A stretch of 64,000 nucleotides of DNA from Phorcus lineatus (lineage: Eukaryota > Mollusca > Gastropoda > Trochida > Trochidae), in contig OV121092.1 of assembly GCA_921293015.1 (NCBI GenBank), positions 46,647,064 through 46,711,063 on the forward strand. The letters are read 5' to 3'. The translations under genes were made by a program, and so were the position numbers. Of the stretch, positions 1-38,476 are shown in pieces. Within the stretch, counting starts at the first letter, position 1; the number at the start of each line of letters is the position of its first letter. The notes under the pieces are model-generated. The model searched no databases, was not told the origin of the DNA, and was given only the letters and a program-made list of their open reading frames with translations.

Positions 1-89
1 TTAAATAATTGAATTTGAATGACCAATAGTTTTTTATAATAGTTACATGGAGCATGGCTTTTGGTTTATTTTCAATTGATTTACATCAG

Positions 90-19427: not shown

Positions 19428-22400
19428 TCAGCTCTTTGATACTATAAAATTCTGTTTTTCTGTGTTTTTACATATACTTAGTTTGAGCCCGGAGCCCTGT
19501 GCACTTCCTCCTGCAGACAAACACTTCCCACTGGCTGGGTTGAACAGCTGACCCGAATTCCTCTGAAAGAGGAGAGAAACATTTGTTATATTATATAAAA
19601 AGTCTATAACATTGGTATATTTCCGATCACACTGTCTGCGACAGTACAAGTTCTTATACTTTTTCGGGTTGAGTCCCTTTGCGGGATTGGATTGTTCAAT
19701 TTTATAACACATTTAATCAAAAGGTTTTTGTCTTTAAAAGAATCTTTTTACCTTATCTAACCAGATCCACACCTGGGGACCCCCAGACTTGTGACACTTC
19801 ATGGCGAGAGGTTCAGCAGAGTTGTCCCCCTTGTTGAGCGAACTCTCAAGACACTTGCGAGTGTTCAATAACCCAAACTGATAGTCAGAAAGCTCCTGCC
19901 AAACCTGCAACATGAAAAACATGAATTAACAATTACAAAACAAACAATTACATCACCCCCAACTAACCCAGCAAAGCACTCCAGCCAATCATTAAAAAGG
20001 AAGAAGTCTTTGATATTTCAGGCCTCTGATTGTTCAAACTGTAGAAGGTGACAGGTCACAGACAGGCCACCTGACAGCAAGGTATCAGTGATAGGTTCCA
20101 GCTGATTTCAATGAGATTGGGCATGGGTCATATCTAAGTTTTAAACTCAAATTCCTCTTTTGCGTCATAGAAGCATCTTCTCCAGTATTGTTCTTTACTC
20201 AAAATGCTCAGTGGAAAGCAAGACAGCAACCACTTCAAGTTTTTAGATCTTATGGTTTTAGCAATGGAATCTAGTCTTTCAGGATCATAGCAGCTTGCTT
20301 CACAAAGATAAAATGGATCAAAAAGTTTACAAGAGATAAGGGCTCAAAGTTTCCCTGAATACGCAAAATAGCTTACTCAGAGTCAAGACAAACTAAGAAG
20401 AGTCCAAAAGTGGGGGGATGTGTTTGGGTTGAACTCTCCACTGATTTCAATCAATTAGTAACACATGAATGCTAAAAAGTACTTTGGATTCTAGATATCA
20501 GTTCCATTTATCTAAAGTAACTTTATATCTTTTTATTATTGGTCATGCTTCTGAAGATTGGGAGCTAAACATAAATTTCATTTATCTGTCTTTATTGTAC
20601 TCAATGATTCAACATGTAATGAAACAAAATATTTGATATTCACTTCTTGGTCTTACGTGCTGTGAATTAGGACCTAGACTTTATGAAAGGCTCCAATTTT
20701 AATACAGTCATTATACAGGCCTATGCCTTCACTTCCTAACCTGCCACAATTTCAATGAAGTCTGGTAACTTCACATGCCACACAATTACACAATGTTGGG
20801 CAATGAATCATGTGTTCAAGCACTCAGGCTAAAAACCACCCATCCCTTGATGAAAATCTTGCTCAACTTCATGCCCCCATAGTAAGTTTAGGGTGTGAGA
20901 GAGCTGTGATCTGTAGCAAATTTGTGTCATTTATTTTTTCAAAAGAGTAAATGATATGTGATTCATGATTACTGTTATTGAGAGAATGGACTTGCAAATT
21001 GACTTAACCTTTACAAAGCTCTAAACCTACTACCAGATGATGGCCATTTAACATGATGTGACCTATCCAGAAATTTCTTTTGTACTATTAACTTTTGGAG
21101 TCCAGTACAGCTGAAACCTGTCAAAGTTCCAGTCTATCACCATCTTTATCCAAGACAATCCACAATACACCACACAGGCAGTTGTCTACCATCATTTGTC
21201 AACACCTTCATCAGATCCGCATCACGCATCAAAGCTGTAGGAACACCCGCGACGATGGATGCGATGTGTAGAGACAGATATGGATACTTCCCCGCCGATG
21301 TCTTCTCTCTGTGGACCTGTTCCTTCTGCTATGTTTACCTCTTCCAGTCCAGGAGTGGGCTCACAGCTAACTTCAATAGGAAAACCCCGCGACTCGTGGA
21401 TCAAACCTCCCTTCTTGACTACCTTCCTGATGTCCAGAACCTAACTGCCAGGGCTCAGATTTGTGACTTCCAGTCTGATGTGGACTGCGGACGATGGGTG
21501 TCGTGCTGTGAGAGTGCTACTGCTTGTTGTGAGGAGCAGTTGTCACAACATAACGAGGTGATAAGTCTAGTGTGACTCTATATTTACTGCCAATTCATAG
21601 CCACGTTAGCTAAGTTTGGTTAGTTGTCTTTTCCTGGTAATTTATATTGATGAAGTAATATGAGCAAAGGAGGTATTGAGGTATTTCTATTGATGATGAG
21701 AGATCATAAAACATACGCAAAATTCTCCATTTAAGTTTTCCCCCCTAAAATTATTTGTTTTTGGTTTTCATAACATGAAATTCTTATGGGTCCAATTAAG
21801 CCTTATGTGGTACTAAACAGCCACCTTCAACAATCCATACCTTATGAAAATATGACGTATACTGCCATTAGACAATCGTCCTTGTAGGCCTGATGAGCTA
21901 AAAATGCAATAACTTTGAAACTACAGAACATGTTGAGTGATGACACTGAAGGAAGCCACTGTCCAGCTACATGGGATGGAATCACCTGCGTGGAAGCAAC
22001 GGCGGCAGGGACAACGGCTGACGTACCGTGTTCTTCGTCTTTGTTTTCAATTCATGATCCAACACTCATCACAGGTGCGTTAAAATTTTCTCGGCAAGGC
22101 AACACTCGAACATGTCTCAATCACTGACTTAGCCATGCTACATTTAGTTAGTCTTATGAGTGCAACGCCGACTTTGGTGATAGATAGTAATCTCTAGGAG
22201 TTTCCTAATTGGGCTATTGGTTCCAGATACAGTAAGCAGAGATGACAGAAAGATGACTGCAGCAAGACTAGAATAAGTCGGTGATTGAGATGAGTGCAAG
22301 CTCTGCCTTGCGGGGCAAGTTGGGATGATTCATTCTTTCACTCCTGCGTCAAAATCTTTCCAACACATTTTGTAGCATATGTTCGGTCCGTTTGCTTATT

Positions 22401-25400
22401 GTAAGTTTGGTCACTCACGCTTGTCCACTAACTGACAGAGGGGTAAGTGTCTTAACCAAAAGACAATGGAGAAGAGATGGCTTTGTACCAATAGTGTGGT
22501 TTGAAGTGAGGCACTATGGTTGCCCTGGTGCAAAACGGCAAAATATTTTCAGTGTTCAGAACATTTTTATAAAACCTTTGAGTTGATACAAATTTTTAGG
22601 ATGCTTTAAATACGTGAAAACAGTGGAAGTATCTACATGCAAACTCACTGTCACACTGCAGAAATGTAGTTGAAAGTCCAAATAAAAATGTAGTGTGGAT
22701 GTATCTTTGGTATGGCGCAAGATTGCAACATTCGGCCCACAGGCGTCCAAAGCAAAAATATGATTTTCTGTAAATTGGACAAATTAATATCGACTTATTA
22801 TGATTAACCTGACCTTTCCCTTTCTGTTTGACAATGACTTTTGACAGGTCTGAATAAACCAATTATCATATTTCACTAAGATTTGACCTTACCTTGCTAG
22901 ACACATTGAGGCCATTACTGTCATTATAAAATTCTTATGTGATGGCCATTTAGTGTCCTAAACATGGCAGTCAAGGAGCATGTTTCTACTGTCAACAATT
23001 GTTAACTGTTGTAAATTGACATGCTTGCAATACACCCTATGCTGTTGATTCTTAAATGGCAGACAGTGGAAAATGTTTTAGAATAATAGACAGAGTTGCT
23101 CCTTCACAGAGTAATTTTGGTTAACCCATAAACTGCCATATTAAAAATTGTACTAAGTTGTATTTTGTTTACAGGAATTTGGTCTATGATACCTACCATA
23201 TTTGTTTTGATAGGAATTTGGTTTTTGAAACGCTCTCTGTTTAGTTTACAGGAACATGGTATACAATAGGTAATGCATTTAGTTTACAGGAACATGGTAT
23301 ACAATAGGTAATGCATTTAGTTTACAGGAACATGGTATACAATAGGTAATGCACTTAGTTTACAGGAACATGGTATACAATAGGTAATGCATTTAGTTTA
23401 CAGGAACAATGGTGAGCGATAGGTAATGTATTCATTTTTAAATTGTAAGACTAACCAAAACAATAATTTTCAATTCATTAAAAATCTTTCTAGAATCATA
23501 AATTCTAAACAGATTATCCCAAATGTTTAAACAAAGTCAGGTTACTGGATATGCATATCACCAATCACCAACTCAAAGGAGATGACAAAAAGAGATGACT
23601 TTTAGTTACAAATTTGTCAGGTGCTACATGTGATTCTATCAGACCAATAATGATATGGCCAGTAAAACTTAATAGGTTCATTCGATTACAACTCAGCAAA
23701 ATGTTCAATGGTTTCAAATTGTGCCAAACTTGCTCAAAGATTTTTAAAGATTTAACTAATCGTTTTATGTTTATCTGTTTTTATGTTATATTTTGTTTAT
23801 AGGAATGGGCTCCAAGGAATGCACAGAGCACGGAACATGGTTTCAGCACCCTTACTCACACCAGGAATGGACCGACTACACATCTTGCTACCAATGAGGA
23901 TAGTTTTTCCGACAAGCTTCAGATTTGGTTACCGGATTTAAGGGATGATGAAGAGAGAATATTACACTTGGAAGTGTGTCATATGACTTTTATGAAACGA
24001 GCGTGAATGTTTGTGTTTTTCACAAATTCAAACAAGTTTCTTTATTACCGATTCTATTCTATTTGAAACGTGTGGAAGTATTCAGAAAACGACTTGCTTC
24101 CATTACGACTGCCAGTTACAGTTACTTCACAGATGACAAAATATAGTAACTCATGCTTAGCTAGGCAAAAGTGCACATGTGCTCATATTAAAAATATGTC
24201 ACTACTAACCATATGGGTACTTAAAGAGATTATGATACATCATCTTGGAACATTTTGGAACCCCTTGCTAATAAAGTTTCAACATTCTTATTTGTATTTA
24301 AAAACTTCACTGACAAATGTTTGGATACTCTATGTGAATGCTGTGTCAACTTCTTCTTGTAAAATAAAAACTGCAACTACAAGTGTTGTTATTCTTCATA
24401 AGAGTCTACAAATGGTAAGACAAACTGGAAAAATCTAGATTTCTTAATTGGGCTGAGAGCTGAGTTTTAAGGACACATTATTTCAATAAAATAATGATAT
24501 CCCTGTCTCTTTTCATAGAATTGAAAAGCAATGACAGTGGCCATCTTGGATGTGGTGAGAAAAACCCAACTGGAATCAATTTGAGCCTTAAATTCTTCTC
24601 AAACACTATACAATTTCATTTGCTATCACAAACAGCCAATGCTTTTAGAGTCTTCAAAATAGATCATATTCAAAATAGCTACTGAATCATGGCTTATGCC
24701 TTGGTGACAGCAAGCAAGCCTTCCATGCAAGAGCTGCTTTCATTGGCTTAAATTGGAAGCTAGTTTGTGCTGCAATTTTTCGCTTAAAGGGGATCTATAA
24801 ACAGAGTGTAATGTAGGATTCTAATAACTCGAGCTACCTCGGTGAAGAGCAAATATCATAAAACATACACTTGCAGATAAAATCTAAAGCATCTAAAAAA
24901 TCATGAGTACCTGAATGTTGGGATCTGTTTGTTTCTTGCACGTCTCCAAAGTTAACTTGCTTTTCCTTCCTCCATCCTGACTTGTCGTCACACATAGCCC
25001 GGACGCACTGTGCTTCAGCTGGGGAAAATAAACATAATAGAATCCTTTTATGTTGATAAACTAGAGAAAAATGAGTGTAAATGAAGTTTTATCTATGGAG
25101 CTCAAACCCAAATAAAACATTTTAAAATTTGAAAAAAGAATTTGTACATCTTGCAATATTGATTATCATGCAGATCAAAAACCTTATAAATCTATGGAGA
25201 GGATTTCACAAATACTTCATCATGAGTCATCAACACCAATGCCATCACGCTCCATCAGGGCGTTTTCTAGCAAAGCTCCTCTAATTCTCTGATTGTCTTC
25301 ACAGGACTTGCCTCTTAATGATACAAGCTAGTTACTCATAGCTTTACAGCATCTAGACTTTCACTGTTTGCTTATCCTGTCACTTCCAAAATTGCTATAT

Positions 25401-34480: not shown

Positions 34481-37294
34481 TCACCGCTTTGGAGGTTTAG
34501 TAGAGATCATAACCTGTACGGGATGACACAAGTCCACGAGATCCTGTTTCTTGGAGAACTTCTTTCCCTGTAGGTTTGGCTCAAGGACCAGGTTCAGCTC
34601 AACACTACAAGACTCAGACCACAGGGCATGGGAGACAACAATGTCCGTCTGGAGTCGATGTCGTAGAGGTCCGATCTTTGTCCAGGCTTTCGTGCTTGGT
34701 GTGAGAATCTGGACCTGTTGATCTGGATATCGGACTTGGACCTTCAATCGATGGACGTCGGGAAGGTTCTCCACAGTGGCATCAAGTGTGATCGTTCCAG
34801 TGAGACCGGCTGCAAATTTTACTGGGTTGTCAGAGAGGTTTTCAACTGGTTCATGTATGACTACTTTGGCTTTCCGGACAACTTGTGTGGAAGGAAAGGC
34901 CACTGGTCTGACCAGGGGCAGAGCACTCTGTATGAGGTTTCTCACTGTGTTCAGTTTGGTGGGATCCATGGTGTCCAGGCTTGAGAGAACTTGTTTGGTG
35001 AAGTTGTCTCCGCTAATGTTATTAGCTTCCAGGAACTGTTTGATGTGTTTCAGATACTGCTTATATGCCTCTGTGGCTCTGAATTGCTCAACAAGAGAGG
35101 ATTTGCTGAGTGTGACTCTGAGTTGGAGGGTAACAGCCTTGAGTTCAGTCTGTTTAATGAGTCCAAGCTCGTTGTTACTGAGGCCCATGAAGAGAGTCTG
35201 CAGCTGAGTGGTTAGCTCGAGAACTTTGTCAATTGGGGCCAGGATGTTGTCTGAGGCTGTCAGGTTACCAACACATGACTGCATTTGGGACATGATCTGT
35301 GTGATAATGAGCTGAGTTCGGAGAAAGGCACAGATGCATTCTGCAGAAGTTGACACCCGGGTGTCCAAATCTTTCACCCGTTCAAGATCCTGAACAGTCG
35401 TCTGAAGCAGTTGTGATGCAGCCTCATTGTCCATTCCTTGAAGAGTTGCTAGGCGACCAAGGCAGTCACTGCGGAAAGCATCAGTGTTTGCATTTGGAAT
35501 GGTTACAATTTCATGTTGACGTCTTTCCCTGTTTTGAAGAGCTGGAACCATTTGAGGCTGACTGTCTCGAAGGTAGATATAATGCCTCAGAGTATGTTCT
35601 GGCAACATAGGCATCAGAGTTGGGCAGTTTGAAGCAGCATTGAATATGAGAACCAAGATACTGATGTAAGCTGGGTCGTCCATATCAGGAACCGGAGTGT
35701 TGAAGAATGGGTGAATACAGAGTAGATCTCTTGTCAGTGTGAGACAAAGTTGTGGATGGTTCTTACCAAGAAACTTTGTACATTTCCAGACTGACAGTCG
35801 GTCTTGGGGATATCTCTGGAGGTTGTCAAGGAGGGCCATGACAGTGTCGTTCAGACATTCCTTGTTTGATAGACGCATGTCACACAGCATATCTCTCAAG
35901 TCCTTTCGAGTTTTTCCCGAGAAGTCCTGAAGGACTCCAAGCATTATTTCTAGTTGATCTTGTCTCAGCACAATATGGTGAGATATTTTTCTCAGACTGT
36001 TGATTGCATTTAGTCGAACACTCTCAATCTCGTCATTGAACATGTCAATTATACTGTCTTGGGACAAGTTAGCAAATGACCAGGATTGAGCTGCCAGTTC
36101 ACAAAGGGAATCAAGCGCTGCATTTCGCACTTCATAAAACTCATCTTCAAGTCCATGTACGAAAGCACCACATGCACCGATATTCATCAGACTGATATTT
36201 TCCGGGTCAAGTTCTTCTTTAGGAGCATCGTCCGCCCATTTCTGACCTGTAGACCACTCTCCAGATTGAAAGAGTTCTTTAGCCCTCTCATGAGCACTTC
36301 GTTTTTTTCTCATATTTGACATCAGTTTCTTGTCAAGGGTTTGTTCGAGAAATCTTGGACTAACCTCATGAAGTGACCCTAATAGCAACGCTGCCTCCGT
36401 TCGCACTTTCACAGATATGTCGTTGATCATGTTACATATCTTTGCGAATCCGTCATCAACAAGTCTTATTTCTTCATCAGATGTTTCACAAATGGTAACC
36501 ATACTCTCTGGAAAAAGATGGCATAAGACCCATATGACTTTGACTGCAGTCATACGGACATCTTCATAATCATCACTGAATGCTTTACAGGCATGCTGAT
36601 GGATGCTGAGATCAAGCTGAAGACCTCTCTGATGAAAGTTCAATATTGCTTGAAATGCGCTTGTTCTTACACGTGGGTCTTGGTCATAAGTGAACTTAGC
36701 AAGCAGTCGCTGAACATCAGTGAGGTTTTCCCCTTCTTGTTTCCACTCATTCGACCAAAGCATTCCTATCAGTTCAAGACCACTGCTTCTAACACTGTGT
36801 GATCGGTCTCGAAGATGAATTTTGGCATTTTGAAGTATCTGAGGTTTGAATGCATAGCAACTTATTGGAAGATTTCTACCAACTGAAGTTAGGGTTTTCA
36901 AAATCTCACACAGAACTTTGTGAGATTTCTCTGAAGTTAGCGAGGAAATAAGGTGATCTATAACAAGATCTGGTGTAAAACATGGAATCCCACACATGCG
37001 ACCGAGAAGATTGGATATTTTCGCCCTGACAACTGCCTCTTTCTCTCTATGGTATTGTTCCATTAATTCTGCTGCCACGCCATTCAATGCATCGCCGGGC
37101 ACTTGAAACAGTCGAGACTCAAAGGTGACAAGAAGTTGTAAAATGTCGTGTGATGAAGTTTGTGATTGTAAATCTAAGTGAAATTCTGGAACAGGCACTC
37201 TGTGCTGTAAACGTAACTTTTTCACAGGCTTTGGTTCTTCGTGGATAACTTGACTGTATTCTGCCAACGCTCGTTTCTTCAATAAGGCTGCCAT
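34481..37294 (-). CDS. INTS4: Integrator complex subunit 4, single uninterrupted exon
   Basis: INTS4 is a HEAT-repeat scaffold of the nuclear Integrator complex. With INTS9/INTS11 it forms the module that cleaves snRNA 3' ends and attenuates transcription. The frame gives 937 aa from Met at 37294, close to the animal INTS4 length of about 960. That Met starts MAALLKKR, like other INTS4 proteins; an upstream in-frame Met (37336) adds 14 unlikely residues. Conserved blocks seen: DQDPRVRTSAF, EEIRLVDDGFAKIC, FLEQTLDKKLMSNMRKKRS, AHERAKELFQSGEWS, GACGAFVHGLEDE, MFNDEIESVRLNAI, HPFFNTPVPDMDDPAYI and C-terminal VMISTKPPKR. The N-terminal two thirds are alpha-helical HEAT repeats; the C-terminal part is beta-rich. 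No intron or frame break occurs, whereas many animal INTS4 genes are multi-exon. Tandem with GALNT gene A, divergent from GALNT gene B. Confidence 0.96.
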   Translation of the reverse strand: MAALLKKRALAEYSQVIHEEPKPVKKLRLQHRVPVPEFHLDLQSQTSSHDILQLLVTFESRLFQVPGDALNGVAAELMEQYHREKEAVVRAKISNLLGRMCGIPCFTPDLVIDHLISSLTSEKSHKVLCEILKTLTSVGRNLPISCYAFKPQILQNAKIHLRDRSHSVRSSGLELIGMLWSNEWKQEGENLTDVQRLLAKFTYDQDPRVRTSAFQAILNFHQRGLQLDLSIHQHACKAFSDDYEDVRMTAVKVIWVLCHLFPESMVTICETSDEEIRLVDDGFAKICNMINDISVKVRTEAALLLGSLHEVSPRFLEQTLDKKLMSNMRKKRSAHERAKELFQSGEWSTGQKWADDAPKEELDPENISLMNIGACGAFVHGLEDEFYEVRNAALDSLCELAAQSWSFANLSQDSIIDMFNDEIESVRLNAINSLRKISHHIVLRQDQLEIMLGVLQDFSGKTRKDLRDMLCDMRLSNKECLNDTVMALLDNLQRYPQDRLSVWKCTKFLGKNHPQLCLTLTRDLLCIHPFFNTPVPDMDDPAYISILVLIFNAASNCPTLMPMLPEHTLRHYIYLRDSQPQMVPALQNRERRQHEIVTIPNANTDAFRSDCLGRLATLQGMDNEAASQLLQTTVQDLERVKDLDTRVSTSAECICAFLRTQLIITQIMSQMQSCVGNLTASDNILAPIDKVLELTTQLQTLFMGLSNNELGLIKQTELKAVTLQLRVTLSKSSLVEQFRATEAYKQYLKHIKQFLEANNISGDNFTKQVLSSLDTMDPTKLNTVRNLIQSALPLVRPVAFPSTQVVRKAKVVIHEPVENLSDNPVKFAAGLTGTITLDATVENLPDVHRLKVQVRYPDQQVQILTPSTKAWTKIGPLRHRLQTDIVVSHALWSESCSVELNLVLEPNLQGKKFSKKQDLVDLCHPVQVMISTKPPKR

Positions 37295-38476
37295 TTCAAT
37301 GGTTATTGTTAGCGATTTCAGCCTTTTCCAGAGCACTCCGACAAGCGAAGTGAGACGGACAAATATGAAGAACAGCTACACGTGCAAAACTGTTGAAACG
37401 AAAATCGCTGACATTATCAGAATTTAGATTTAATCAGTATGGGTGAAGATTATGCCATAATTCAGTTGAACTTATTAAAATAATATATTATCCTTTTTCT
37501 ACCAAATGCAGTCTGCGGGGGTAATGAAATCCTTTAAACTTTTCAATTCCCGTTTTAAGCTTTTGGAAAAGTGCATTTTGCACACGGAAAAATACGATCG
37601 TCAAAATCTATCCGTTAGTAATAACGACCATGAAATAATTGTTATTGCAATATTTTCTATATTCAATATTTCTAAAACAAATATATATTGACCTCAAAAT
37701 TCGTGATTAGATGTAATGTGAGGCATTTTGTCGATTTGAGTGGACCAGATTGTCTAATCGAAAACTGGACTCATTCTTCCCAGACAGGCGTTTCGTTTGC
37801 TCCCGCAATAACCAGTCAATGTTTGACACGATTTTTGGACAGAAGCAGGTGCTTGGATTCCGTCTACCTCGCCCACGTTTCCTCCAAGTATGCATGCCTT
37901 AGTATATACTTCATAAAAAGAATTACGTGTTCTTTATAAATCTTGTCTTTAATCTGTCCAGAAGGTTTATCATTTCTGAAACATGATCTGATAGTGGTAG
38001 TCTCAGACTATGTCACCATATTATGATCATCCATCTCAAAAAGAGATATGAATAATTCTTTCTAAAAAGTGTTAGTTGGGAGTATGAATAGACGTTTAAG
38101 TTAAAGTATGACAATCACATTTTCAGGCAATTATTCATGTGATCTTTGATAATCAGACATCAATTGTTTTCATTGATAATCAGTTTATTTTATCACATTG
38201 TCAAAAAAGTTCAAAGACGATATGGCAATAATTTTTCTGATTTTTATCACTAAAGAGTTACAAACAAATCCTCAATAAGTGAGGAGATATTGATGAATCC
38301 CTGATGGATGGTTTTAGCAAAGAAGTCTGTTTAGTCTAGTCTGTTTTAATTTGTTTTGGGTCATAATATATTATATATTGTGTGTTATTTCAAAAAGATT
38401 CTGATTATTACAATTATTCAAATGGTATATCATATTCCTCCTTGTAACAATTTACCTTACTTCTCATTTCCTTTCA
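37295..38476. promoter_or_regulatory. Divergent intergenic region between INTS4 (-) and GALNT gene B (+)
   Basis: 1.2 kb between the INTS4 start and the acceptor (CTTTCAG, ending 38477) of the GALNT B leader exon. It must hold the INTS4 promoter and probably the GALNT B first non-coding exon. A GC-richer stretch at 37770-37890 is a candidate. No TATA box could be assigned. Confidence 0.4.

Follow-up and report, generated by a model that had tools for sequence, protein, structure and literature searches.

The DNA analysed here, hereafter the window, is a 64,000-nt stretch of the Phorcus lineatus genome (contig OV121092.1, positions 46,647,064 to 46,711,063 of the forward strand). It is placed on contig 19 of the 958-Mb, 74-contig genome that we searched for paralogues. 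Its + strand carries a three-exon gene, hereafter the HRM gene, for a cysteine-rich protein that ends in the hormone-receptor (HRM) domain of class B1 G protein-coupled receptors. An initial annotation made from the sequence had joined three exons in frame between positions 21255 and 23897, and we reproduced this reading: the joined frame encodes 181 amino acids, with no earlier stop in the 181 codons, and is followed by TGA. The gene is laid out as follows.

21255-21557, + strand: exon 1, N-terminal cysteine-rich domain (101 codons, ending in phase 0), common to five paralogous receptors
21558-21926, + strand: putative intron 1 (369 bp), without counterpart in any of the five paralogues
21927-22074, + strand: exon 2, first half of the HRM domain, with a strong donor at 22075
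22075-23802, + strand: intron 2, which holds a 38-bp minisatellite
23803-23897, + strand: exon 3, second half of the HRM domain and TGA, with no donor where four of the five paralogues carry one

The C-terminal part of the protein matches the Pfam HRM family PF02793 with 57.2 bits (E = 2.2e-15; curated cut-off 26.2 bits) over profile positions 2-64 of 66, so that the complete HRM signature previously recognized in the letters is borne out by a hidden Markov model. The closest solved structures are the ectodomains of the CGRP and calcitonin receptors, with the CGRP receptor ectodomain 3n7p at the top (9.4e-12). That search used a 173-aa version of the protein with a different exon 2 start as query; the match spans residues 97-171 and leaves the N-terminal cysteine-rich domain outside. 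Exon 1 by itself gave no Pfam match with E of 1 or less, and its predicted structure was uninformative (mean predicted local distance difference test score, pLDDT, 40.5).

Searches with the 181-aa protein and with one of its relatives, L053, revealed five more genes that share its N-terminal domain, all on contig 19: L053, L056, L055, L044 and L059. By its sequence the HRM gene is therefore a member of a six-gene class B1 receptor subfamily on one contig. Over exons 1 and 2 its identity to L053, L056, L055 and L044 is 53, 51, 35 and 33%, respectively, and ~37% to L059 over the aligned part. Searched locally against the fetched loci, exon 1 alone matched paralogue exons at 1.5e-38 and 8e-38, and it aligns with L053 and L056 at the DNA level without internal gaps. 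The motif CGRW.SCC....CC had been taken for an unusual N-terminal addition. This view has to be abandoned: since C.RW..CC.....CC is carried by all five paralogous receptors, it belongs to the standard N-terminal domain of the subfamily.

Membrane exons could be read 0.6-1.8 kb past exon 3 in L053, L044, L056 and L059, and L055 has a match to the seven-helix family 7tm_2 5.7 kb past exon 3. Three membrane pieces of L053 match the calcitonin receptor best (1.2e-13). Judged from these relatives, the candidate ligand side would point to the calcitonin branch of class B1. Contig 19 carries 18 of the 20 genomic HRM matches listed, and class B receptors are strongly expanded there; the listing of 20 is incomplete, since L059 is absent from it. 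Two further HRM matches, at C1:32730485-32744378 (L037/L038), occupy unbroken frames of 392 and 419 aa next to 7tm_2 matches, and look like intronless class B receptors. Upstream of the start codon of L056, repeats similar to the beginning of exon 1 (ATAACGATGGAGATGTG) were seen by eye.

The HRM gene departs from its relatives at the end of exon 3. L053, L056, L055 and L044 have a phase-0 GT donor exactly 12 nt past the last HRM cysteine codon, while L059 has none at this position. The HRM gene lacks GT at the same place, and the third codon past the last HRM cysteine is already TGA, in agreement with the stop annotated three codons beyond this residue. Without a splice donor, exon 3 therefore reads into the stop and becomes the last exon. 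The early stop and the absent donor leave an ectodomain without membrane anchor, as in a soluble receptor.

A membrane half was not found elsewhere in the window either. When the genome was searched with 7tm_2 and the best 150 of 183 candidates were scored, none fell in the window, so that the seven-helix domain of a class B1 receptor was not found there. From the window to the contig end no + strand match was among those listed; the two listed are both on the - strand. Pfam scans of the + strand from exon 3 onward (three frames over 23.8-38.5 kb, one frame over 38.5-53.5 kb) likewise gave no 7tm_2. The membrane exons of L059, which a local search revealed, were not among the 7tm_2 matches listed, and we therefore built dedicated profiles from the paralogues' membrane exons and ran them over the window in six frames with a reversed-sequence control. 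The best scores were 9.2 bits for transmembrane helices (TM) 3-4 (reversed 11.3), 13.3 bits over 12 positions for TM2 (reversed 11.2) and 9.3 bits for TM5 (reversed 9.1). L059, which had been excluded from the profiles as a positive control, scored 44.5, 34.5 and 13.8 bits for TM3-4, TM2 and TM5; the first two profiles are thus good tests and the TM5 profile is too weak. The TM2 match, at ~42.1 kb, was taken as chance: it is 18 kb off, far short of the control (34.5 bits) and only slightly higher than in reversed sequence (11.2 bits). A tblastn search of the window for membrane exons gave weak matches only (best 0.08 among those listed). No credible membrane exon for the HRM gene was thus found in the window, as the initial annotation had noted.

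By comparison, 16 of the 18 HRM matches listed on contig 19 are followed on their own strand, at no more than 26 kb, by a 7tm_2 match, the exceptions being the HRM gene and C19:3682174 (- strand; L050/L063). The latter is an HRM exon from another subfamily, and the matches listed include no 7tm_2 downstream of it. Queries from the HRM gene's own subfamily found no forward-strand membrane-exon match in ~9.7 kb downstream of it.

Since membrane exons accompany the shared N-terminal domain in all five paralogues, while the HRM gene has neither the donor nor such exons, it appears to be, by descent, a truncated receptor derived from a full-length ancestor. The initial annotation had offered a soluble binding protein and a truncated remnant as alternatives. 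The truncation now seems settled as far as descent goes; as to function, either alternative may hold. The explanation that we favour overall, with a probability of roughly 0.5, is a class B1 receptor that has lost its membrane half and is now likeliest to be a soluble peptide-binding protein. The ancestor would have been a class B1 peptide-hormone receptor whose seven-helix exons were lost. If transcribed, the gene would yield the cysteine-rich N-terminal domain joined to an HRM fold, with no membrane anchor. Such a product, if expressed, secreted and able to bind, might act as a decoy, competing for a calcitonin/PTH-like ligand with its five sister receptors. We would give somewhat less than an even chance to the more specific proposal that this paralogue, having shed its membrane half, was retained as a gene devoted to a secreted class B ectodomain, a peptide-hormone trap for the sister receptors on the contig that would do constantly what soluble CRFR2 alpha achieves through splicing.

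Nearly as likely as the soluble binder is a decaying receptor remnant, a pseudogene whose ectodomain exons have not yet acquired a stop or a frameshift. Simulated drift (2000 simulations per setting, substitutions only, no indels) bears on this in both directions. Along the full length of the branch (0.81 substitutions per codon, as estimated under a ratio of non-synonymous to synonymous substitution rates, omega, of 1) the frame stayed open in just ~0.2% of runs (P about 0.002), and neutral drift along the entire HRM gene branch is unlikely. Shorter drift is more permissive, with 2-3% of frames open at 0.4 substitutions per codon and 13-15% at 0.2, a value that a remnant could accommodate. 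The residues kept argue against decay. All 14 cysteines invariant across the five paralogues, which include those of the class B1 ectodomain, are present, and of the residues that do not vary among the four other genes compared the HRM gene keeps 34/38, much like the full receptors L055 (34/38), L044 (34/39), L059 (34/38) and L053 (34/34); L056, a near-copy of L053, was left out of this comparison. The gap-free alignment of exon 1 with L053 and L056 tells in the same direction, as do pairwise omega values from three methods: those for the HRM gene with L053 (0.33-0.45) and with L056 (0.23-0.38) resemble that for L053 with L056 (0.31-0.39). Pairwise values with L055 and L044 were saturated and were set aside. 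The HRM gene was thus probably under constraint for part of its branch, a constraint that may or may not have lasted past the loss of the membrane half.

Several observations weigh against a functional soluble binder. A codon model (165 sites) gave omega 0.49 on the HRM gene branch and 0.21 elsewhere; at 5% it rejected neither omega = 1 on that branch, at a cost of 0.74 log-likelihood units (2 delta lnL 1.5), nor a ratio equal to that of the receptors, at a cost of 1.64 (2 delta lnL 3.3). When the L053/L056 stem was given a separate ratio as well, omega was 0.38 on the HRM gene branch and 0.34 on the stem. The protein branch of the HRM gene is long, 0.67 versus 0.23 for the stem leading to L053/L056, its nearest pair, and a frame without function would still be open if the membrane half had been lost recently. 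The HRM domain itself has changed. C-W, C-P and G-x-W are named as class B1 ectodomain motifs in PMC7200681, and only G-x-W is present (as GTW). The C-P site reads CS in the 181-aa protein, whereas the proline after the fourth HRM cysteine is kept in all five paralogues. At the C-W site, which reads CV, the tryptophan after the third HRM cysteine is replaced, as it also is in four of the five paralogues, CW being found only in L044.

The 5' part of the gene adds to these difficulties. Exons 1 and 2 form a single exon in all five paralogues, and their joining in the HRM gene depends on a 369-bp intron absent from these and on a mediocre acceptor at 21926 (7 of 14 pyrimidines). Donor 21558 is fair (top 3.8% of + strand GT sites of the window) and donor 22075 strong (top 0.5%), when sites are ranked with a simple matrix of approximate frequencies. 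Exon 1 starts with ATG, and no signal peptide was recognizable by eye, no predictor having been applied. The lack of a recognizable leader speaks for a remnant, as do an omega not distinguishable from 1, the long protein branch, the split between exons 1 and 2, and the donor and membrane exons that were not found. The hydrophobic stretch of exon 1 aligns with a conserved cysteine-containing segment, which in L055 is preceded by the leader-like MSVLARGVVGWGLLLACMVTLSPG. The leader may lie in an upstream exon, an arrangement that may also hold for L044 and L059. A transposon origin of intron 1 was considered and rejected, the 380-bp stretch having no other full genomic copy and one ~41-bp piece elsewhere.

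A quite different alternative, which we consider improbable, is that the HRM gene is still a full receptor, with exon 3 as the alternative end of one transcript and membrane exons farther away used in another. Soluble class B receptor forms made by alternative splicing are indeed known, such as CRFR2 alpha (PMC10914602). However, there is no donor at the paralogues' position, no credible membrane exon in the window and, among the matches listed (best 150 of 183), none on the + strand beyond it. A chance assembly of unrelated open frames found no support and is refuted by the HRM match (2.2e-15) and the exon 1 matches (1.5e-38 and 8e-38), and it is untenable because the exon 2 and exon 3 frames separately reach the HRM cut-off (32.3 and 26.3 bits, scored in longer containing open frames).

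Two features follow the stop codon.

23945-24239, + strand: dispersed high-copy element (a diverged copy), beginning ~48 nt past the stop, in the downstream flank or 3' untranslated region
24270-24275, + strand: AATAAA, a possible polyadenylation signal, read directly; by our estimate its chance occurrence is easily expected in AT-rich DNA of such length

The dispersed element gave 1428 first-look candidates in the genome, of which the best 40 were scored. The copy in the window shows 67.7-69.9% identity to six of seven fetched copies in best alignments, the seventh matching in pieces only; the fetched copies reach ~86-89% among themselves (best alignments of the pairs listed). The window copy thus looks old, being more diverged from the fetched copies than these are from each other. 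No inverted repeats were found within it, and inverted-repeat-like ends are visible by eye in the alignment of the element copies. A recent segmental duplication as the origin of the HRM gene was rejected, since the flanks match elsewhere only dispersed repeats or pieces of up to ~90 nt (best 40 candidates each); the upstream flank matches other sites in short pieces only. The minisatellite in intron 2 (23240-23432) consists of 5.1 copies of a 38-bp unit with 94% matches. Each unit reads like an acceptor, GGAACATGGTATACAATAG and a donor (GTWYTIG), akin to the GTW part of the HRM exon, a resemblance that may be due to chance.

On the - strand, glycosyltransferase and lectin pieces flank the HRM gene. 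At ~28.8-27.1 kb three Glycos_transf_2 pieces score 24.0, 18.5 and 22.5 bits (cut-off 23.3) and a Glyco_transf_7C piece 27.4 bits (cut-off 23), so that two of the four exceed their own cut-offs; at ~19.5 kb a ricin-type lectin piece scores 26.7 bits, below its cut-off of 29. Together these look like one GALNT gene, a name that we infer from the order of the catalytic and lectin parts. The HRM gene would thus sit antisense between catalytic and lectin exons of a GALNT-like gene, much as the initial annotation had placed it. A further family 2 glycosyltransferase match on the + strand at ~40670 (43.9 bits, two stretches) is possibly a second GALNT-like gene in the opposite orientation. On the - strand, an unbroken, intron-free frame of 951 aa (34481-37336) covers matches to Integrator subunit 4 domains (HEAT, 8-helix bundle and C-terminal Ig-like), and probably represents a retrocopy or an intronless INTS4 gene.

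The HRM gene is best described as a truncated, frame-intact paralogue of a class B1 receptor and no new kind of protein. Among the papers listed in literature searches, none pointed to a stand-alone HRM gene by title or abstract opening, which is not evidence of absence. If the HRM gene is expressed and its product secreted, a class B receptor ectodomain would have a gene to itself, full-length paralogues elsewhere in this genome would serve as comparators, and the origin of a soluble hormone trap through loss of membrane exons would become directly testable. If not expressed, the gene would be an ordinary truncated paralogue within an expanded receptor family.

Family B receptors are known to have expanded in Lophotrochozoa as calcitonin-like, Cluster A and Cluster B groups (PMC7200681, PMC8557429), and the genes on contig 19 resemble these in forming a lineage-specific class B expansion. 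Like the calcitonin and CGRP receptors, whose ectodomain structures include its best match, 3n7p, the HRM gene carries a recognizable HRM domain, but unlike these full receptors it is truncated, and neither the Trp that follows the third HRM cysteine nor the Pro that follows the fourth is kept. The closest functional parallel is rodent sCRFR2 alpha, reported to be a splice form that is released in vitro and whose altered level shifts anxiety behaviour in male rats (PMC10914602). That form arises by skipping of exon 6, and the membrane receptor is encoded by the same rodent gene; for the HRM gene no membrane exons were found, and a soluble protein would be its sole product. What the two would have in common is a class B1 receptor in soluble form.

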